Origin: Pyrinomonadaceae bacterium
GTDB taxonomy: Bacteria; Acidobacteriota; Blastocatellia; Pyrinomonadales; Pyrinomonadaceae
NCBI GenBank assembly: GCA_021228405.1
Contig: JAJQRF010000010.1
Span: forward strand, 62,001-126,000
Direction: 5' to 3'
DNA: 64,000 nucleotides
Part shown: positions 55,451 to 64,000 of the stretch, piece by piece
Numbering within the stretch: the first letter of the stretch is position 1
How the letters are laid out: each line of letters opens with the position of its first letter
Program-made: the position numbers and the translations under genes
Notes under the pieces: model-generated
The model's database searches: none
What the model was told of the DNA's origin: nothing
The model's input: only the letters and a program-made list of their open reading frames with translations

Positions 55451-55744
55451 CGAGTTGCTTGCCAACCATTTCGAGTCGGCTTCCAACGCCTTCGAGTTAG
55501 CTTCCAACGGGTTCGAGTTAGCTTCCAACTACTTTGAGTTGCTTGCCAACCATTTCAAGTCAGCTTTCAACGCCTTCGAGTTGCGATTTAACCCGTTCGA
55601 GTGGGCTTTCAACGCCTTCGAGTTGCAATTTAACCCGTTTGAGTAGCGATTTAACCTGTTCGAGTTGGCTCTCAACCTGTTCGAGTTGAGATTTAACTAT
55701 TTCGGGATGCGTGTCAACGGGTTCGGGAAACGTTTTCACCGTTT
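55451..55744. repeat. degenerate 21-bp tandem array
   Basis: Fourteen 21-bp units start at 55451, 55472, 55493 and so on. Each unit has a head CGAGTT (or TGAGTT, CGGGAT), a middle (GCTTGCCAAC, GCTTCCAAC, GATTTAAC, GCTTTCAAC) and a tail (CATTT, GCCTT, CCGTT, CTGTT), freely combined. In the minus-strand frame much of it reads as L-E-x-V-x-S/K-Q heptads (about 67 codons from 55763), interrupted by stops; in the plus strand it reads F-E-L-x-x-N-x. It lies directly before mutS2. No ribosome site. Confidence 0.85.
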
Positions 55745-55788
55745 CGGGGGCAAAGATTCCCACTTTTATTATTTTAGATTTAAGTTTT

Positions 55789-58284
55789 ATGAATCAAACA
55801 ACCTTTTCATCGCTGGAATACAGCCGACTGCTCGCGCTCTTTACGTCGCAGGCGCAAACGCCGATGGGCAAGGCGCGGTTTGAAAAGCTCGCGCCGCTGA
55901 CGCATTTGCCCGAGCTTGAAAAACAGCTTCGAGCCGTTTCCGAAACCATCAAACTCAACGAGGAAAAGCAGGTTTCGTGGTCGTTCAGCGGTTTGGAAGA
56001 CCCGGCGGACGCGGTCGCCATTCTGCGCATCAAAGGCGCGACGCTCGAACCCGTGCGGCTTTTGGAAGTGACCCGCGTCTGCAATCAGGCACTTTTTGCG
56101 CGTTCGATGATCGCGCCCGAAAAGGAATTCGTCCCGACGCTCTGGGAGATCGTCGCCAGCATTCCGCCACAGCTTTTTGCCGCGCTTGAAAAGATCAATA
56201 AAAAACTTCTGCCTTCGGGCGAGATCGACGATTCGGCATCGCCTGAACTCCAACGTCTGCGCCGTGAGATCAACGCGCAACGCGCACGTCTGCAAAAATC
56301 GCTCGAATCCGCGATGCGAAGCGCGGGCGATGCGATCCAGGATCAGATCGTGACACAGCGCAACGAACGTTACGTGATTCCCGTCAAAGCCGATTTTCGC
56401 GGCAAGGTCGGCGGCGTGGCGCACGGTTTTTCGTCGTCGGGCGCGACCGTCTTCATCGAACCGCTCGACGCGATCGAAGCAAACAACGAACTGCAAAACC
56501 TGAAAGGCAAGGAAGAACGCGAAATCGCGCGAATCTTGTTTTCATTGACCGAAGAACTCCGCGAACAGCTTCCGTCCATCGAACTCGCCGTTTCAGCCGT
56601 CGCCGAACTCGATTTTATCAAGACGAAAGTCGAATTTGCCCGCAAATTCAAAGCCATCGTGCCGACAATTTCCGACGACGAAACGCTCGATCTAGTTGAC
56701 GCAAGACATCCTCTTTTAGAAGAAAATATTCGTTCGTCGTTAGTTGTTAGTGGTTCGTTGCAAAAACAAAAAACAAACAACGCACAACGCACGACGAACG
56801 ACGAACAAGCCAAAGAAATCGTTCCGGTTTCATTCAAATTAACCAAACGCAATTCGGTGATGATTATTTCAGGCGCGAACGCGGGCGGAAAAACGGTCGT
56901 GATGAAAACCGCCGGATTGTTGAGCCTGATGGCGATTTCGGGCTTGCCCGTTCCGGCGCGCGAAGCAACGATTCCCTTTTATAAATCGGTGCTCGCGGAC
57001 ATCGGCGATCATCAATCCTTAAGCGCGAATCTTTCGACGTTTTCATCGCATATTTCAAATATCGCCGCGATGATGCGCGATTGTTCCGCGCCTTCGCTCG
57101 TTCTGCTCGATGAAGTCGGAACAGGCACCGACCCCGAAGAAGGTTCGGCGTTGGGCGTGGCGATCGTCGATTATTTCCGCCGCAACTGCGGCGCGCAGGT
57201 CATCGCTTCGACGCATTATCGGGGGCTTAAAATCTATGCCGCGAACGATGAGAACGTCATCAACGCGTCGGTCGAATTCAATGAGAAAACGCTTCAACCG
57301 ACTTACAGATTGCTGGTCGGATTGGCGGGCGCGTCTTCGGGAATCGAGATTGCGCGTCGTTTCGGAATCCGCGACGACGTGATCGCCGTTGCACGTCAAA
57401 ATCTCGATATTTCGGCGCGTGAAGCCGAAAATTATCTGCGGAAATTGCAGGACGAAACGCGCCAGGCTGAAGATTTGCGCGTCGCGCTCGAAGAAGAACG
57501 CGAGGCGACCGCGACGAAATATGCGATGCTCGACATCGAGGCGGGCAAAAAGGAAAAGGAACGCAAACGCCAGTTTGAAAAAGAACTCGCGCAGACCATC
57601 GAAAATTTCGATAAACAATCGCGCGCCTTTATCAGTTCGATCGAGGACAAAGCCCTGAAAAACAAACTCGAAAAGGAACGCATCGCCCGCAAAGCGGAAT
57701 TAAATCGAGCGGTTTTGAATAAAGTCCAAAGCCCGTCGAAAGGCGGTCGCTGGTCGGCTTTCAGTAATCAAAATCAAACAACGAAAGACGAACGACGAAC
57801 GACGAACGACGAACCGATCAAAGTCGGTTCAAAAGTCCGCACGAGCTTCGGAAACGTCGGCGTGGTCGAACGAATGGACAAGGAAGTTGCCGAAGTTCTG
57901 GTCGGCGGAATGCGTCTGCGCGAACGCCTCAAAAATCTGCAAGCTGTCGGCGAACCCGAAAACGATCAATCGCAATCGCTCGGCGAAAAGCTCCAAAATC
58001 AGGCGAAAGGCTCGAATCTGCGCCTTGATGCCGAAGACGCAAACGCCGAACTGAACCTGATCGGCAAAACGACCTCGGATGCCGAATACGATCTCGACCG
58101 TTTTCTGGACGAAGCCTATCTCGCCGCCCTGCCGCGTGTGCGCATCATTCACGGTTTCGGCACGGGCGCATTGAAAAATTTCGTCCATCATTTTCTAAAA
58201 TCGCACCCGCACGTTTCCCGCTTTAACTTTGCCCCGCAGGATCAGGGCGGAAACGGCGCAACGGTCGCGGAACTGAAACAATAG
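55789..58284 (+). CDS. mutS2: MutS2 family ATPase/endonuclease
   Basis: 831 residues from the ATG at 55789 (a longer frame from 55711 runs back into the array). Implicated in ribosome rescue or suppression of recombination, depending on species. Core and lever helices 1-300, then ABC-type ATPase: Walker A G-A-N-A-G-G-K-T at 362-369, L-V-L-L-D-E-V-G-T-G-T-D-P-E-E-G, H-loop S-T-H-Y. A long coiled coil precedes the Smr nuclease domain, about 745-831, with L-N-L-I-G and H-G-F-G-T-G. Two low-complexity insertions (about 316-342 and 660-675) are encoded by simple repeats. The 3' end has a diverged duplicate at 59281. Confidence 0.95.
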   Translation: MNQTTFSSLEYSRLLALFTSQAQTPMGKARFEKLAPLTHLPELEKQLRAVSETIKLNEEKQVSWSFSGLEDPADAVAILRIKGATLEPVRLLEVTRVCNQALFARSMIAPEKEFVPTLWEIVASIPPQLFAALEKINKKLLPSGEIDDSASPELQRLRREINAQRARLQKSLESAMRSAGDAIQDQIVTQRNERYVIPVKADFRGKVGGVAHGFSSSGATVFIEPLDAIEANNELQNLKGKEEREIARILFSLTEELREQLPSIELAVSAVAELDFIKTKVEFARKFKAIVPTISDDETLDLVDARHPLLEENIRSSLVVSGSLQKQKTNNAQRTTNDEQAKEIVPVSFKLTKRNSVMIISGANAGGKTVVMKTAGLLSLMAISGLPVPAREATIPFYKSVLADIGDHQSLSANLSTFSSHISNIAAMMRDCSAPSLVLLDEVGTGTDPEEGSALGVAIVDYFRRNCGAQVIASTHYRGLKIYAANDENVINASVEFNEKTLQPTYRLLVGLAGASSGIEIARRFGIRDDVIAVARQNLDISAREAENYLRKLQDETRQAEDLRVALEEEREATATKYAMLDIEAGKKEKERKRQFEKELAQTIENFDKQSRAFISSIEDKALKNKLEKERIARKAELNRAVLNKVQSPSKGGRWSAFSNQNQTTKDERRTTNDEPIKVGSKVRTSFGNVGVVERMDKEVAEVLVGGMRLRERLKNLQAVGEPENDQSQSLGEKLQNQAKGSNLRLDAEDANAELNLIGKTTSDAEYDLDRFLDEAYLAALPRVRIIHGFGTGALKNFVHHFLKSHPHVSRFNFAPQDQGGNGATVAELKQ
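56735..56815. repeat. simple repeat inside mutS2 (first)
   Basis: GTTAGTTGTTAGTGG followed by ACAAACAACGCACAACGCAC and ACGACGAACGACGAAC, in frame, encoding S-L-V-V-S-G-S-L and N-N-A-Q-R-T-T-N-D-E. It sits just before the Walker A region. Confidence 0.75.
57766..57814. repeat. simple repeat inside mutS2 (second)
   Basis: AACGAAAGACGAACGACGAA and further ACGACGAA units, encoding N-Q-T-T-K-D-E-R-R-T-T-N-D-E. In the linker before the C-terminal half. Confidence 0.75.
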
Positions 58285-58295
58285 TAGGGAGTTTT

Positions 58296-59273
58296 ATGAA
58301 GAATTTCTTTGTAGTTTTTTTACTTGTTCTCTTTACAAGTATTTTTTGCTTTGCACAGACGGAAGAGCCGGAACAGCCTGAAGAAAATTGGCTGAAAGAA
58401 TATAAAATTTACAATATGGATTTTATCAACTTTCGCTACGACCTGTATTCAAAAGGCGATCTCAAACGATTCAGAGAAATGCTCGATCAATTTAAGAGTG
58501 TCAAATCGAACGATAAATGGGACGGAACTTATATTGACGGTCAGGAAGTCGGGTTTACAACTTTTACGTGGAATACGGAAGTCGGTTTTGTAGATTTTTA
58601 TGTTTACACCTGTTATCCCGAACTACGGGTTTTAAATTACGGCAGAGTCGAAAATACTCCAAGCTACATTCAAATCTACCGTGAAAACTCAAAACCGTAT
58701 GAGGGAATTAACAGCAAAAAATATATCAAAGTTAAATGGGGCGAAGCTCAGTTTTTGGTTGAAGAACCGTCGCTCTCGGCATTTGCCGAAAAAGCCGTCG
58801 GTATTTACGTCGAACCCGAAGAAACGGAAAACGGCGATAATCATAAATGGTATAAATATTTGTCGCGCGGAATGAAGGAAGATAAATTAAACGGACTTCC
58901 CGAATTTCCGGGCGAGTATAAACATTTAAAGCGTTTACCCGTTCAGGCGAAAATAATTTCGGTCGGAAAGAGAAAACTCGTCAAGGATTTTGAAGACCCG
59001 CTTAGTAGCGAACAATCCGCCGTATATGAAATCCGTTTAGATTCGGGTGAAAAAGCAGGTATCAGAAAAGGTCTAAAACTTTATATTGAAAAAACCGGAG
59101 AGGAAGTGAAAATAATCAGCGTCGGTCAAAACAATGCAATCGGAAAATTGGTCAGAAATATCGATGAGGATGGAAAAGATTCTTGTGTTGACGGTAATTA
59201 CCGGAAAACACTTTGTCAAAAAATTAAACCGTCATTTATCGCCAAAAGCATTGTCGGTCAAATTTGGTATTAA
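58296..59273 (+). CDS. secreted hypothetical protein (module inserted after mutS2)
   Basis: 325 residues, ATG after TAGGGAGTTTT. Signal peptide MKNFFVVFLLVLFTSIFCFAQ, then an acidic start (T-E-E-P-E-Q-P-E-E-N-W). Predicted mixed alpha/beta, rich in Tyr, Lys and Glu, with no known motif; two Cys in the C-terminal third. It is markedly more A-rich than mutS2. It lies between the mutS2 stop and a duplicated mutS2 3' end, so it was probably brought in by an insertion event. Function unknown. Confidence 0.75.
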   Translation: MKNFFVVFLLVLFTSIFCFAQTEEPEQPEENWLKEYKIYNMDFINFRYDLYSKGDLKRFREMLDQFKSVKSNDKWDGTYIDGQEVGFTTFTWNTEVGFVDFYVYTCYPELRVLNYGRVENTPSYIQIYRENSKPYEGINSKKYIKVKWGEAQFLVEEPSLSAFAEKAVGIYVEPEETENGDNHKWYKYLSRGMKEDKLNGLPEFPGEYKHLKRLPVQAKIISVGKRKLVKDFEDPLSSEQSAVYEIRLDSGEKAGIRKGLKLYIEKTGEEVKIISVGQNNAIGKLVRNIDEDGKDSCVDGNYRKTLCQKIKPSFIAKSIVGQIWY

Positions 59274-59280
59274 ACTATTT

Positions 59281-59315
59281 GAAACGGCGTAATGATCGCA
59301 GAATTGAAGCAGTAA
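59281..59315 (+). repeat. diverged duplicate of the mutS2 3' end
   Basis: 35 bp matching 58250-58284 at 27 positions. All differences are transitions, and the last five codons (A-E-L-K-Q-stop) are kept with synonymous changes. No promoter or start; a remnant. Confidence 0.75.
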
Positions 59316-59338: not shown

Positions 59339-59587
59339 ATGCGGAAAATCACAGTATGAACGCAACGATCGGACTTATCATTGCCGAAAAATGTCGAGAT
59401 CAGCGAGTTTGAGGTGAAATTGACAGTTGCCTCGAAGCTTTACGAGTTCGGCAGACTTTCATCGGGACAAGCCGCCGAAATAGCGGATTTATCATAACGT
59501 GCATTTCTCGAAATTATCGGCAAATATAATGTTCCGGTTTTCGGTTATGACGAAAACGAGCTGGAAGAAGATTTGCAAAATCAATGA
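59339..59587 (+). pseudogene. decayed UPF0175-type antitoxin
   Basis: One frame gives V-K-L-T-V-A-S-K-L-Y-E-F-G-R-L-S-S-G-Q-A, then A-E-I-A-D-L-S, then R-A-F-L-E-I-I-G-K-Y-N-V-P-V-F-G-Y and D-E-N-E-L-E-E-D-L, the classic UPF0175 pattern. Two in-frame stops break it (TGA after the sixth codon and TAA after A-D-L-S). The end overlaps the toxin remnant as ATGA. Confidence 0.8.
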
Positions 59588-59824
59588 ACCGGGCGGTTAT
59601 CATTGCCGATGCAAGTTGTCTGATCGTTTTGCAAAACATCCGCGAATTATCATTGCTTCAAAAATTATTCGGCGAAGTTTTCATCACTACAGCAACTCGG
59701 CATAATCTTACTTGCCAAGAAAAAAGGTCTGATCGATTCCGTCGAAAATTTATTGCAAAAACTCGAAAGTGCCGATTTTAGAATCCCGGAAAAATTAAAA
59801 GCCGGGATTTTGGATGAAAATTAA
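59584..59824 (+). pseudogene. decayed DUF3368 PIN-like toxin
   Basis: Starts M-N-R-A-V-I-I-A-D-A-S-C-L-I-V-L-Q-N, the usual PIN Asp. After F-G-E-V-F-I-T the frame changes, and the normal C-terminus appears in another frame: I-I-L-L-A-K-K-K-G-L-I-D-S-V, then L-E-S-A-D-F-R-I-P-E-K-L. About 65 central residues are missing. Partner of the UPF0175 remnant upstream. Confidence 0.8.
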
Positions 59825-59862
59825 TGTTTGATTTAAGACTATAAATAAGCAAACCGAAAAAG

Positions 59863-59937
59863 GCTCGACGACCAATATTTTATTGATGATCTGAAAAATC
59901 GCGCCCTCCTGGTGCGGATCGTGGAGAATCAAGGAAA
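59863..59937 (+). repeat. dnaG 5'-end fragment, first copy
   Basis: About 70 bp match the start of dnaG (61437-61506), for example GACCAATATTTTATTGATG, CTGAAAAATCGCGCC and TGGTGCGGAT, with only a few substitutions. The start codon is lost (AGG for ATG). Confidence 0.85.
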
Positions 59938-59986
59938 TTCTTTTAATTTAGAATTTTTCGCGTAAAATAGATTAGGAGAAATTAAT

Positions 59987-60235
59987 ATGCAAACTGAATT
60001 AATTGAACAAATCATACATTTACCGATTCCTGAACGAATCGAGATAATCGAGCGGATTTCAAGAAGTCTGCGTGAAGATTTGCGCGAAAGTGACTATGGA
60101 AATGATAAATTAGAACGCCGCAAAACGGCTTATGAACGTTTGCGCGGAATTGCCTCGGTTAAAGGAAAAACTCCGCCGACGGACGAAGAAGTAAAGGAAG
60201 ATTACATCGACTATATTTCGGAGAAATATAAATGA
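59987..60235 (+). CDS. antitoxin of a PIN toxin-antitoxin pair, first copy
   Basis: 82 residues, AGGAGAAATTAAT before the ATG. N-terminal L-P-I-P-E-R-I-E-I-I-E-R-I-S-R-S-L resembles addiction-module component proteins; the C-terminal G-K-T-P-P-T-D-E-E-V-K-E-D-Y then Y-I-S-E-K-Y-K is nearly identical to the second copy and probably binds the toxin. The stop overlaps the toxin start (ATGATG/TGA). Likely represses its own operon and neutralises the toxin. Confidence 0.82.
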   Translation: MQTELIEQIIHLPIPERIEIIERISRSLREDLRESDYGNDKLERRKTAYERLRGIASVKGKTPPTDEEVKEDYIDYISEKYK

Positions 60236-60651
60236 TGCGCGTTCTGCTCGATACGAATGTCGTTTTGGATTTCGTTCTTCAACGGCAACCATTTTTTATC
60301 GAAGCAGACGAGATTTTTTTTCGTTTGAGGAACGATGAATTTGAAGGTTTTGTTTCGCCGATCACGCCGATCAATGTTTTTTACACGACGCGAAAAGAAA
60401 TAGATAAAACAACGGCTTTTATTGCAATCGAAGAACTTTTGAATTTAGTCGAAATTTCAAAAAGCAACAATCAAATTTATCAAACCGCGCTTTCAATCAA
60501 CTTCAATGATTACGAAGATGCCGTCCAGCACGAATGCGCCGTTGCCGAAAATCTTGACGCAATTGTGACGCGAAACCCGAAAGATTTTAAGAATGGTTCG
60601 GTAAAAGTATATTCTCCTGACGATTTTCTCAAGTATTTGCAAACGATTTAA
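60235..60651 (+). CDS. PIN-domain toxin (VapC-like), first copy
   Basis: 138 residues. M-R-V-L-L-D-T-N-V-V-L-D-F-V-L-Q-R is the PIN N-terminal Asp strand; further acidic positions in Y-E-D-A-V-Q and I-V-T-R-N-P-K-D-F complete the fold. Ribonuclease toxin by family. The ATG at 60235 is chosen by homology to copy two; an ATG 3 bp earlier is equivalent. Its TAA stop overlaps an ATG that begins the second dnaG 5' fragment, an arrangement identical to that at the true dnaG. Confidence 0.85.
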   Translation: MRVLLDTNVVLDFVLQRQPFFIEADEIFFRLRNDEFEGFVSPITPINVFYTTRKEIDKTTAFIAIEELLNLVEISKSNNQIYQTALSINFNDYEDAVQHECAVAENLDAIVTRNPKDFKNGSVKVYSPDDFLKYLQTI

Positions 60652-60705
60652 TGCTCTACGACCAATATTTTATTGATGATCTGAAAAATCGCGCTGATTT
60701 GATGT
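60651..60705 (+). repeat. dnaG 5'-end fragment, second copy
   Basis: ATGCTCTACGACCAATATTT and the following bases match dnaG from its ATG for about 55 bp with a few transitions, then diverge. The ATG is kept and overlaps the toxin stop, but the frame (M-L-Y-D-Q-Y-F-I-D-D-L) soon ends in unrelated sequence. Confidence 0.9.
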
Positions 60706-60760
60706 TGAAAATTAATCTGAATCGAAGTTGGTGTTACAATTATTTTCGGAGGTAAACATA

Positions 60761-61018
60761 ATGACGCAACAGCAGATAGTTCAGGAATTCAAGACTTATC
60801 CGAAGGCGCAAAAATCGGTTATTATCAGACAGCTTTTACGAATTTTTGAAGAAGATTTGGAAGAAAATACGCAAAACGGGAAAGAACTTTCAATCGCGGA
60901 ACGCACAGCAATAGTCGATAGTTTACGCGGAATTGCGGCAGTCGAGGGCAAAACGCCGCCGACGGATGAAGAAGTAAAAGAGGATTACATCAACTATATT
61001 TCGGAGAAATATAAATAA
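60761..61018 (+). CDS. antitoxin of a PIN toxin-antitoxin pair, second copy
   Basis: 85 residues from the ATG at 60761, with the strong ribosome site CGGAGGTAAACATA; the longer frame to 60728 adds an unlikely leader. S-L-R-G-I-A-A-V-E-G-K-T-P-P-T-D-E-E and Y-I-S-E-K-Y-K at the C-terminus match copy one closely, while the N-terminal half has diverged (Q-Q-Q-I-V-Q-E-F-K-T-Y). This may give the two pairs different operator or toxin specificity. Stop overlaps the toxin start as TAATG. Confidence 0.82.
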   Translation: MTQQQIVQEFKTYPKAQKSVIIRQLLRIFEEDLEENTQNGKELSIAERTAIVDSLRGIAAVEGKTPPTDEEVKEDYINYISEKYK

Positions 61019-61434
61019 TGCGCGTTTTGCTCGATAACGATGTCATTTTGGATTTTCTTCTGCAAAGACAACCGTTTTACAGTTCAGCAAACCGGATTTT
61101 TATTCACCTGCAAAATAAAGAAATTCAGGTTTATATTTCGACGATTACTCCGATCAACGCTTTTTACACGACACGCAAGGAAAAAGGCAAAGACATCGCA
61201 TTCAGAGCGGTTGAAGGTTTGCTGAAAATCGTCGAGGTTTGCCGCACGAATAAATCGGTTTTACAAGATGCCTTCACGCTGAATTTCAGTGATTTTGAAG
61301 ATGCCGTTCAGTGCGCTTCGGCGATTGCCGAAAATCTGGACGCAATCGTCACGCGCAACGCAAAAGATTATAAACTTTCTCCGATAAAAGTGTTTTCTCC
61401 CGACGATTTTCTTCAACATTTGCAAACTATTTAA
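61018..61434 (+). CDS. PIN-domain toxin (VapC-like), second copy
   Basis: 138 residues, a paralogue of copy one (L-L-D-N-D-V-I-L-D-F-L-L-Q-R, S-P-D-D-F-L-Q-H-L-Q-T-I at the end). PIN acids: Asp in L-L-D-N, F-E-D-A-V-Q, V-T-R-N-A-K-D-Y. The TAA stop overlaps the ATG of dnaG by one base (TAATG), and no ribosome site for dnaG is seen, so primase translation is likely coupled to that of the toxin. Confidence 0.85.
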   Translation: MRVLLDNDVILDFLLQRQPFYSSANRIFIHLQNKEIQVYISTITPINAFYTTRKEKGKDIAFRAVEGLLKIVEVCRTNKSVLQDAFTLNFSDFEDAVQCASAIAENLDAIVTRNAKDYKLSPIKVFSPDDFLQHLQTI

Positions 61435-64000
61435 TGCTCTACGACCAATATTTTATTGATGATCTGAAAAATCGCGCCGATCTGGTGCGGATTGTAGAAA
61501 TGCACGTTCCGCTTAAAAAAAAAGGCGCGAATTGGTGGGGCAATTGTCCGTTTCACGGTGAGAAAACGGCTTCGTTTTCGGTCAATCCCGCGAAGGGTTT
61601 TTTCAAATGTTTCGGCTGTTTGGAAGAAAATGAATTGATTTGGACGGATAAAGGCTTAAAGCCAATCGGAAAAGTTTGCTATTGCGATAAAGTTATTGAT
61701 CTAAATGGCAACTTAAGGTCAATAATTAATCTTATTCATAAAACTTCCGACGTTTTGCTTGGAGTTTCCACGGCTTTATTTCGTTATGACAAACTCTGGC
61801 TGACTCCCGACCATACGTGTTTGTTCGTTCGTCAGGAGGAAGCAATCGCCAACCTGCCCTATTTATGTCAAACCAAAGAAAGATTAAAATTTTATTCTGC
61901 TCGAAAACGCGCTAAACGCTCGATTATTTATAAAGACAAATTGAAGCTCACCGAAGGAAGAGCCGATGAAATGAAAATCGGAGATTATCTGGCTTTTCCT
62001 GTTATTCCCGAAATTTCACGTAAAAATAATCCTTTGAAAGCCAAAGGAATCATCAACCCTAAAAAAAATCGTGTCAACGGCTATCGAATCGAAGAACTCC
62101 CGGTTAATGAGAAGACAGCCCGACTTTACGGGTTATGGTTGGCTGAAGGCTCGGTCGGACGCGGATTTGTGCGCTGGACTTTGGGCGCGAATGAACTGCA
62201 TTATGGCGATGAAATTGTTTCAATTCTCAAAAGCGAGTTTAATTTGACGGCATCGGTTTCTCATCACGGCACTCACAAAAATATCTGCGAGGTGAATTGC
62301 AGTAAAACGGATTTAGCCAACCAACTCATTCACTTTTTCGGTAAGGGCGCGTCAAATAAAAAAATCCCTGCCGAATGTCTTTATTGGACGACTGAGGTTC
62401 AAAAGGCTTTATTAAAAGGTTATCGTGACGGCGATGCGAACAAAACCGGCATTTCGCGCTCGACATCGCGTGAACTCTCTTATGGACTTTTTGCTCTGGC
62501 AATTCAAACAAAGGAATTTATATCTCTTTTACGAAACGACGAGTATATTGATAAAAACGGGCAAATTCACCGACAATTTTGGACACAATACCCGCGAATG
62601 CGCGAAAGCTTGCGCGGCTTTTATGAAAAAATTAACGATACTGAATATTACCTAACACAAATCAGCGATATTCAAGAGAAAAAAGAAACTGCCAGGGTTG
62701 TCGATATTACGGTCGAAGAAACGAGTTCCTTCACAACTAAATTGGCGACCGTTCATAATTGCGGAAAAGGCGGAAATGTTTATTCGTTTTTGATGGAACT
62801 CGAAGGTTTGAATTTTCCCGAAGCGATCAAACGTGCGGCGGAAATTTCGGGTGTTCCGCTGCCCGAACCGATCGACGATAAAAATTACGAACGCAATAAA
62901 AAACGCAAGCAGGAACAAAAAGCCGTTGCCGATCAGGTCATCGAACTCAATAAATACGCGCTCGATTTCTGGGAACATCATCTGACGGAAAACAATCCGC
63001 ATTCAAAAGCGGCGCGTGAATATCTGGAAAGACGCGAGATTTCGGCGGAAACTATCAAAAAATTCCGCATCGGCTATGCGCCCGACAGTTGGGACGCGCT
63101 GATGTCGCTTTTGAAGGAAAAAGGCGCGGACGAAAAACTGATCGAAATGTCGGGGTTGGTTTCGGTCAATGAAGAAAAGAAACGCGTTTACGACCGTTTT
63201 CGCGGGCGCGTGATGTTTCCCGTGCTGAACGTTGACGGAAATCCGATCGCGTTCGGTGCGCGGATACTCGACCAGGGCGAACCGAAATACCTCAATTCAC
63301 CCGAAACTCCGGCTTATATCAAAGGCGATCATCTTTACGGGCTTTTTCAATCGAAGGAAAATATCCGCAAGCAAAAATATGCGATTCTGGTCGAAGGTTA
63401 TCTCGATCTGATCGCACTTTACCAATTCGGCATCACGAATTGCGTCGCAAGTTTGGGAACGGCTTTCACCGAACAGCAATCGAGATTGCTCGGCAGATTT
63501 GCGAAGAAGGTCGTTGTCAATTATGATGGAGACAAGGCAGGTGTTAAAGCGGCACGAAGGGCGATCGAAACTCTGTTAGCGGATGATTTTGAAATCAAAA
63601 TTTTAGTTTTGCCGAACGGTCAGGACCCCGACGATTTCATACGCGCAAACGGGTTTGACGCTTACAAAAAACAACACAAAGACAACGCAACCACCTATCT
63701 CCAATTCGTTTTAGAAACTGCTGTTTCGACGCGCAATCTTTCCGTTCCGAAGCAAAAAGCCGAGGCTATCGAAGAAGTTTTGCCGATCATTTCGACTGTT
63801 TCAAATCCGATTCAAAAACGCGACTCGTTCGACCAGGCGATGACTTTTCTGCGGGTTGACGATGCGATTTTGAAGCGCGATCTGTGGCAATCGGTCAAGA
63901 TCGGTTCAAAGATCGAAACTCAAACCGTCAAACAGCAAGTTGCCCGTGCCACGCAAGCCAAAATGACTGTCGCCGAACAGCGTTTGCTTGAACTGCTTAT
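61434..64000 (+). CDS. dnaG: DNA primase, interrupted by an intein; runs off the window
   Basis: Partial: open from the ATG at 61434 to the window end (855 codons, of which 381 are intein). Makes RNA primers for replication. Mature N-terminus M-L-Y-D-Q-Y-F-I-D-D-L; CHC2 zinc site C38-P-F-H41, C59-F-G-C (fourth Cys is Cys+1 after splicing). The polymerase and TOPRIM core follows the intein: V-E-G-Y-L-D, Y-D-G-D-K-A-G and L-P-N-G-Q-D-P-D-D-F. The helicase-binding C-terminus lies beyond the window. No ribosome site; the start overlaps the toxin stop. The gene normally neighbours rpsU/rpoD; here its upstream side is a toxin-antitoxin array. Confidence 0.95.
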   Translation, partial: MLYDQYFIDDLKNRADLVRIVEMHVPLKKKGANWWGNCPFHGEKTASFSVNPAKGFFKCFGCLEENELIWTDKGLKPIGKVCYCDKVIDLNGNLRSIINLIHKTSDVLLGVSTALFRYDKLWLTPDHTCLFVRQEEAIANLPYLCQTKERLKFYSARKRAKRSIIYKDKLKLTEGRADEMKIGDYLAFPVIPEISRKNNPLKAKGIINPKKNRVNGYRIEELPVNEKTARLYGLWLAEGSVGRGFVRWTLGANELHYGDEIVSILKSEFNLTASVSHHGTHKNICEVNCSKTDLANQLIHFFGKGASNKKIPAECLYWTTEVQKALLKGYRDGDANKTGISRSTSRELSYGLFALAIQTKEFISLLRNDEYIDKNGQIHRQFWTQYPRMRESLRGFYEKINDTEYYLTQISDIQEKKETARVVDITVEETSSFTTKLATVHNCGKGGNVYSFLMELEGLNFPEAIKRAAEISGVPLPEPIDDKNYERNKKRKQEQKAVADQVIELNKYALDFWEHHLTENNPHSKAAREYLERREISAETIKKFRIGYAPDSWDALMSLLKEKGADEKLIEMSGLVSVNEEKKRVYDRFRGRVMFPVLNVDGNPIAFGARILDQGEPKYLNSPETPAYIKGDHLYGLFQSKENIRKQKYAILVEGYLDLIALYQFGITNCVASLGTAFTEQQSRLLGRFAKKVVVNYDGDKAGVKAARRAIETLLADDFEIKILVLPNGQDPDDFIRANGFDAYKKQHKDNATTYLQFVLETAVSTRNLSVPKQKAEAIEEVLPIISTVSNPIQKRDSFDQAMTFLRVDDAILKRDLWQSVKIGSKIETQTVKQQVARATQAKMTVAEQRLLELL
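61617..62759 (+). mobile_element. DnaG intein with LAGLIDADG homing endonuclease
   Basis: 381 codons without a stop. Block A: C1-L-E-E-N-E-L-I-W-T-D-K-G. Block B: T63-P-D-H66. LAGLIDADG motifs: L-Y-G-L-W-L-A-E-G at 170-178 and L-L-K-G-Y-R-D-G-D-A at 265-274, with the catalytic Glu and Asp. Block F: V-V-D-I-T-V-E at 361-367; block G: V-H-N at 379-381, followed by Cys+1. All splicing residues are present. The intein splits the zinc finger between C-F-G and C-G-K-G-G, so splicing is required to make a working primase. Amino acid content and codon use look like the host. Confidence 0.95.

Follow-up and report, generated by a model that had tools for sequence, protein, structure and literature searches.

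In Rhs and contact-dependent inhibition (CDI) loci, serial displacement leaves strings of orphaned ends. The immunity-gene arrays of the Vibrio cholerae type VI secretion system (T6SS), for which orphan 3′ regions of Rhs/CDI are named as a related case, have tentatively been ascribed to homology-facilitated illegitimate recombination, with one-sided events proposed for the module stacks (PMC5361080). Hotspots without mobile elements are also known, and double recombination has been proposed for them (PMC5635113). In dusA islands, which rely on a tyrosine integrase and attachment (att) sites of 19–28 base pairs (bp), the sequence of the insert replaces the 5′ end of the gene and thus supplies the target with a new one (PMC4482086). 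In E. coli conjugation, shortened and circularised incoming DNA integrates by a single crossover, duplicating the homologous segment; the duplication product was present in 56 of 60 clones, and the 14 that were sequenced had duplications of 109–950 bp (PMC3240628). Statements on these four cases follow excerpts of the sources. Here, we analyze the interval between mutS2 and the primase gene dnaG in a 64,000-nucleotide (nt) stretch of a Pyrinomonadaceae bacterium (assembly GCA_021228405.1, contig JAJQRF010000010.1, positions 62,001 to 126,000), hereafter the window, in which toxin-antitoxin (TA) cassettes are interspersed with copies of the beginning of dnaG.

Accretion of cassettes at this essential gene is real, recurrent and unusually legible; its general kind is known, while its place and form are new. 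A dnaG match was obtained in 108 of the 119 genomes of the family, and 105 loci, the window included, were assembled. A hidden Markov model (HMM) of the dnaG start detected 19 copies (E < 0.01) in 16 of the 105 loci, which belong to eight genera of one Acidobacteriota family of soil bacteria. As in the V. cholerae arrays, modules stand in series beside a conserved anchor, displaced pieces are stacked and no recombinase is invoked. Truncated remnants of the anchor, the 19 dnaG-start copies, lie between modules, and alleles of one genome do not cluster in the arrays, just as the two toxins of the window, the modules compared here, are not each other's closest kin. In the arrays, effector genes at a conflict locus are displaced, whereas the present locus duplicates the 5′ start of a gene essential for replication, as well as the mutS2 3′ end, and leaves the gene whole: the product of the anchor is not partly lost, since the window dnaG frame is open and its domains are kept. 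Rhs/CDI loci differ in that 3′ ends of toxin genes are involved rather than the 5′ end of a housekeeping gene. Integrase-free hotspots share variable cargo between fixed core genes and a lack of recognised mobile elements, whereas here cargo is added together with copies of gene ends. The replacement of a 5′ gene end recalls dusA islands, yet no integrase was found among the window proteins or among the families listed for the interval ORFs of relatives. Finally, the E. coli case concerns a laboratory plasmid at lacZ, with no natural stack. No work joining dnaG, mutS2 and TA systems was found in the literature, although one paper was listed that mentions Pyrinomonadaceae as well as TA systems, and insertion at the 5′ end of dnaG was not recognised among the 8 matches listed of 448 papers on integration sites.

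The window locus is laid out as follows, all features being on the + strand.

55711–58284, +: mutS2, the left flank of the hotspot (open reading frame (ORF))
58296–59273, +: SEC325-class secreted protein of 325 amino acids (aa), adjoining mutS2 (ORF; no Pfam match)
59283–59314, +: tentative candidate remnant of the mutS2 3′ end (nhmmer E 0.075, weaker than the 0.01 cut-off used; model positions 88–119)
59356–59586, +: UPF0175 antitoxin gene, degraded (HMM match in two pieces; limits by eye)
59584–59822, +: DUF3368 PIN toxin gene, degraded (HMM match split into two pieces that occupy different frames; end by eye)
59861–59925, +: dnaG start copy 1, nt 1–65 (90% over 63 nt, E 1.4e-18; nhmmer E 3e-9)
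59987–60235, +: antitoxin of pair 1 (Pfam Unstab_antitox E 5e-4, below the family cut-off)
60232–60651, +: PIN_3 toxin of pair 1, its stop overlapping the ATG of copy 2 (Pfam PIN_3 E 1e-21)
60651–60704, +: dnaG start copy 2, nt 1–54 (94% over 54 nt; nhmmer E 1e-7)
60732–60740, +: putative extended -10 promoter-like TGTTACAAT in the gap between copy 2 and antitoxin 2 (from reading of the sequence)
60761–61018, +: antitoxin of pair 2 (ORF; HMM from interval antitoxins, itself included; no Pfam match)
61018–61434, +: PIN_3 toxin of pair 2, its stop overlapping the dnaG ATG (TAATG; Pfam PIN_3 E 3e-21)
61434–64000, +: dnaG primase, functional copy, with intein, extending past the window end (Pfam Zn_ribbon_DnaG, DNAG_N, Toprim_2)

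A preliminary description of this DNA had placed copies of the dnaG start at about 59863 and 60651, in addition to the gene at 61434, and both BLAST and nhmmer recover them. When the genome itself (5.7 Mb, 20 contigs) was searched by BLAST with dnaG nt 1–65, three strong matches were obtained, all inside the window: the gene (118 bits), 59863–59925 (query nt 3–65, 88 bits) and 60651–60704 (85 bits). The next-best match genome-wide scored 35.6 bits. The gene and both copies are identical across nt 8–44 (37 nt); copy 1 carries AGG in place of the dnaG ATG. In a control with 43 window ORFs (dnaG omitted), copies of gene ends were found solely at the two mutually paralogous toxins. With 159 ORFs that precede mutS2 in relatives, the same control yielded three end matches, two in locus L146 (64–65% identity) and one in L121 (32 nt), and four more matches that stopped short of the gene end. 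Self-comparison revealed no dnaG-start copies in 23 genomes that belong to other families of the class. Alignment by chance, which the preliminary description had named as one outcome that would overturn it, is excluded by the own-genome search, the ORF controls and the comparison with other families.

The two paralogous antitoxin-PIN pairs that had been described, with toxin stops overlapping a dnaG ATG, are likewise borne out by the ORFs, by the Pfam PIN_3 matches and by the sequence TTTAATG present at both toxin stops. In both pairs the PIN toxin is preceded by an overlapping antitoxin gene, a layout that would fit type II TA systems. The proposed uniform unit of antitoxin, toxin and dnaG start is not supported. 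Copy 1 follows mutS2, a secreted-protein gene and the degraded UPF0175/DUF3368 pair (71% identity across 38 aa for the toxin) instead of a PIN_3 toxin. Relatives have secreted-protein genes and the other TA family at this position, and a mirror image exists at the mutS2 3′ end. The UPF0175/DUF3368 pair is presumably the older one, and we read the window as at least three TA arrivals from two families. The protein adjoining mutS2, which was called secreted from an N-terminal signal-like stretch read by eye, has relatives in the mutS2-dnaG interval of other genomes.

The variation in the number of units that had been predicted for relatives was indeed found. A mutS2 end lies upstream of dnaG in 89 of the 105 loci, at distances ranging from 1 to 4026 bp, and the interval holds zero, one, two or more cassettes and at most two dnaG-start copies. 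The interval fits a recombination hotspot between core genes, with variable cargo enclosed by the same two core genes. Four cargo classes recur in varied combinations and orders: PIN_3 pairs, UPF0175/DUF3368 pairs and two secreted-protein families. The count of 19 copies omits L120, where dnaG is at a contig edge, intervals shorter than 40 nt, which have no room for a copy and were left unscanned, and weak matches in L056, L061 and L140 (E 0.055–0.43). Self-comparison gave start copies in 17 of 102 family loci, with L061 among them as a weak case.

The window pairs are 70% alike across 871 nt and spaced by 783 nt, and loci L098 and L106 contain several secreted-protein paralogues each. Both observations would suit duplication in place, in which a TA pair and the adjoining dnaG start were copied by unequal crossing-over and diverged later. 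The toxin tree argues otherwise, since window toxin 1 groups with toxins of genomes G074 and G066 (support 85/97) and window toxin 2 with that of G013 (92/75), inside a group with genus-9 toxins (96/88). Forcing the window toxins to be sisters costs 34 log units (approximately unbiased test, p-AU 0.0094). Moreover, the dnaG starts are identical across 37 nt, whereas the pairs differ by 18–30%; the chance of 37 identical nt at 70–82% identity is 2e-6 to 6e-4. Since the toxins are not sisters and the three starts share 37 identical nt, the two window cassettes arrived separately, in agreement with the preliminary description. In L118 (98.3% over 59 nt), L041 (98.2% over 57 nt) and L078 (96.6% over 174 nt), the dnaG start is the sole repeat reported and there is no second copy of the cargo. 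Together with the non-sister toxins, these lone repeats show that cassettes were added, not recently duplicated in place; the lone repeats, the tree and the 37-nt identity all disfavour recent tandem duplication, and we regard tandem duplication in general as unlikely.

The PIN_3 toxin subfamily, defined by a profile built from copies at the locus and cut at E 1e-10, has 26 copies in 25 of the 119 genomes and in 13 of the 29 genera. All copies but one are found upstream of dnaG at a distance of no more than 4 kb; the remaining one (G072) directly follows mutS2. Among 80 loci of homologous toxins in a wider contig collection, 11, all from Acidobacteriota, have a dnaG or mutS2 match in the flank; the other 69, many of them cyanobacterial, have no such match at E 1e-8. 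Relatives of SEC230 and DUF3368 are found elsewhere in the genomes as well, so that the PIN_3 subfamily alone is locus-bound. Such confinement is not expected of a freely moving element. The spread of the subfamily over 13 genera could instead reflect an old, vertically inherited cassette that was differentially lost, the dnaG-start copies being kept alike by gene conversion, which short neighbouring repeats can undergo. Against this, genera g6, g9 and g17 each show a mosaic of cargo orders and toxin kinships, and remnants and start codons in g4 and g11, as well as start codons in g10, look like those predicted by import. We therefore consider vertical descent with loss very unlikely.

The mutS2 3′ end mirrors the dnaG start. 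Copies of the mutS2 3′ end were detected by HMM in L099, L049, L100 (two copies), L085 and L091, and self-BLAST confirmed those in L099, L049 and L100 only; a mutS2-tail match in L092 was dropped, as it is the native mutS2 end, located at a contig edge. The copy in L099 (94% over 53 nt) differs from the gene mainly in its last bases, and in L100 a dnaG start is fused directly to a mutS2 end.

We infer that cassettes probably enter by recombination anchored in a gene end, either the 5′ end of dnaG or the 3′ end of mutS2, and duplicate that end. DNA of related cells in which cargo is linked to a short stretch of the neighbouring gene end would enter, by transformation or another route, through homologous recombination in that end, and the second junction would be illegitimate, lying some tens of bases into the gene concerned. 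The fragment may instead circularise and integrate by one crossover. In either case, the old end would become a truncated remnant with the cargo next to it, and the gene would keep a full-length copy. Repetition of such events would stack cassettes, the youngest being nearest to the gene. Surviving products presumably keep a complete dnaG because selection would spare only those that leave this essential gene intact. The genome encodes ComEC- and DprA-like genes. Such genes are common and are no proof of competence.

The insertion had previously been taken for a target-regenerating mode. The part of this proposal that stands is that dnaG keeps a complete start and that no recombinase gene is seen in the window interval; a new mode of insertion as such is not upheld. 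The toxin subfamily is locus-bound, and homology-anchored recombination accounts for the pattern more readily than would a mobile element restoring its own target. No recombinase gene was recognised by Pfam among the seven window proteins. The intervals of relatives contributed 105 ORFs of 95 aa or more, all from loci with a mutS2 end and none from the window. The 25 listed of their 26 Pfam families include no integrase and a single IS200-like transposase match, which was not located among the ten ORFs scanned singly. No similar DNA turned up in plasmid and phage collections.

A derivation of the copies from the dnaG of other species had also been put forward for checking, and it is not supported: each of the two window copies is closest to the dnaG of its own genome. 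The distribution of mismatches between copy and gene varies. In L042 all seven lie within nt 1–18 of 58, and in L041 both are within nt 1–6; in window copy 2 all three are at nt 45–54, and in L078 all six are at nt 100 or beyond. The p values computed for these positions are optimistic, as limits were placed at the last mismatch once the mismatches were known. For L042 and L041, the working gene may have received its first bases with the cassette, the remainder being native. The 171-nt copy in L078 (5139–5309) differs from the gene at six sites, where the copy has G for A or C for T.

The working dnaG starts with GTG in 6 of 7 loci adjacent to PIN_3 and in 5 of 36 others (Fisher p 5e-4), a test made on 17 hand-picked genera that were chosen after the cargo was known, g8 dropping out because it has no start. 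L120, L044 and loci without a recognised ATG, GTG or TTG are omitted from the test. In L039, L041 and L141 dnaG begins with GTG, and in their 1, 3 and 15 genus mates with ATG, while the remnants of L039, L041 and L042 begin with ATG. The remnant in L092 is, by eye, of another dnaG type than the L092 gene. We dropped the idea that the working dnaG starts are wholly derived from other genera, since most of those with genus mates resemble their own genus best.

Several observations weigh against recombination anchored in gene ends. The dnaG of another genome is the top match for 11 of the 19 copies, eight of them from genus 9, although for L041, which is among the 11, the own-dnaG match is shorter and of higher identity. 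Working dnaG starts mostly resemble those of their own genus and not a distant donor, and the GTG association is weak when all genera are taken (6 of 12 vs 22 of 87). Published one-sided recombination generally deletes recipient DNA, according to the excerpted report (PMC3240628). If a simple circle integrated from a diverged donor, mismatches would be predicted throughout the repeat, not just near nt 1–18. A comparison of dnaG nt 35–70 with the mutS2 tail in 89 loci (mean z 0.43) revealed no overall likeness from which the joint could be explained, and similarity of these segments as the cause of a fixed joint is therefore unsupported, despite the joint in L100. The mechanism is inferred from metagenome-assembled genomes, which include no donor and recipient pair of the same species. 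Lastly, copy ends cluster: 7 of 15 fall inside one 4-nt span, nt 56–59 (p 5e-5 for uniform ends), and 4 of 12 do so when copies of likely shared descent are collapsed (p 0.026), the independent copies (15 or 12) having been chosen by hand. Recombination in a gene end does not account for this clustering.

The clustering keeps alive the alternative of site-specific integration, in which a cassette carrying an att-like dnaG start would be inserted at nt 56–59 by a recombinase acting in trans, as in dusA islands. Ends at nt 56–59 are associated with three different cargo classes, and dusA islands, as far as the excerpted source describes them, endow the target gene with a new 5′ end (PMC4482086). 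Yet the remaining copies end at nt 39–52, 65–74, about 131–153 and 171, where 131 (L088), 153 (L090) and, within the second range, 70 (L092) are BLAST ends for which an ungapped reading gave 93, 26 and 0. Cargo classes differ in the sequence that follows the copy, the integrase search of relatives' intervals was negative as described above, the mutS2 3′ end shows the same phenomenon, and in the 119 genomes the toxin subfamily is not found away from mutS2 and dnaG. We thus judge site-specific integration to be quite unlikely.

Whatever its route, the cargo is fitted closely to dnaG. In 33 loci, no more than 80 nt separate dnaG from the end of the last recognised cargo gene, and in 27 of these the stop codon of that gene lies within -5 to +1 nt of the dnaG start. 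The six exceptions are L051, L052, L079, L080, L106 and L107; L078, in which the toxin match ends 190 nt from dnaG, is not among the 33. The antitoxin start is 97–100 nt from the dnaG-start copy in L039, L041, L042, L043 and L118, despite differing copy ends and cargo. In L085, L089 (two cases) and L100, a secreted-protein gene runs on in frame from the dnaG start, as judged by eye. In the same three loci, codon GTG 18 of dnaG, also by eye, could serve as a new start before the signal peptide. At the position equivalent to the window's TGTTACAAT, L040 and L079 have TGATACAAT. Many loci in which mutS2 is followed by a TA pair have, within the last mutS2 codons, an extended -10 promoter-like TGCTACAAT; the window mutS2 is without it. 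In L059 (G028), the same PIN_3 pair abuts dnaG and the upstream neighbour is unlike mutS2; we take it to resemble dnaX.

The frame of the window dnaG is uninterrupted from its start to the end of the window, with domains kept; the frame has 1017 codons. It includes an intein of about 381 aa (61617–62759, limits by eye) that is inserted in the zinc ribbon at a cysteine and matches Pfam Intein_splicing with E 3e-8, just under the cut-off. The dnaG frame of G076 is also long (999 aa), and those of G074 and G075 have 616 aa. The window mutS2 contains two low-complexity stretches, at 56740–56815 and 57775–57815, with repeats like ACGACGAACGACGAA that encode TTNDE-like peptides.

The mutS2-dnaG interval is a readable record of serial insertions beside an essential gene, and since each remnant marks one event, the timing, donor and junction of the events can be studied. 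The locus suggests a way in which TA pairs could spread without a transposase: they would make use of the end of a gene common to all relatives. A bolder view, which we hold as doubtful, is that the dnaG 5′ end, mirrored by the mutS2 3′ end, is a preferred and perhaps enzymatically favoured capture point near nt 56–59, through which the family keeps adding selfish TA and secreted-protein cassettes to the primase operon, the newest cassette taking over the translation start and expression of dnaG. Because the dnaG start sits on the toxin stop codon, loss of a cassette could disturb expression of the primase, and such a disturbance would be a testable reason why chromosomal TA pairs persist.

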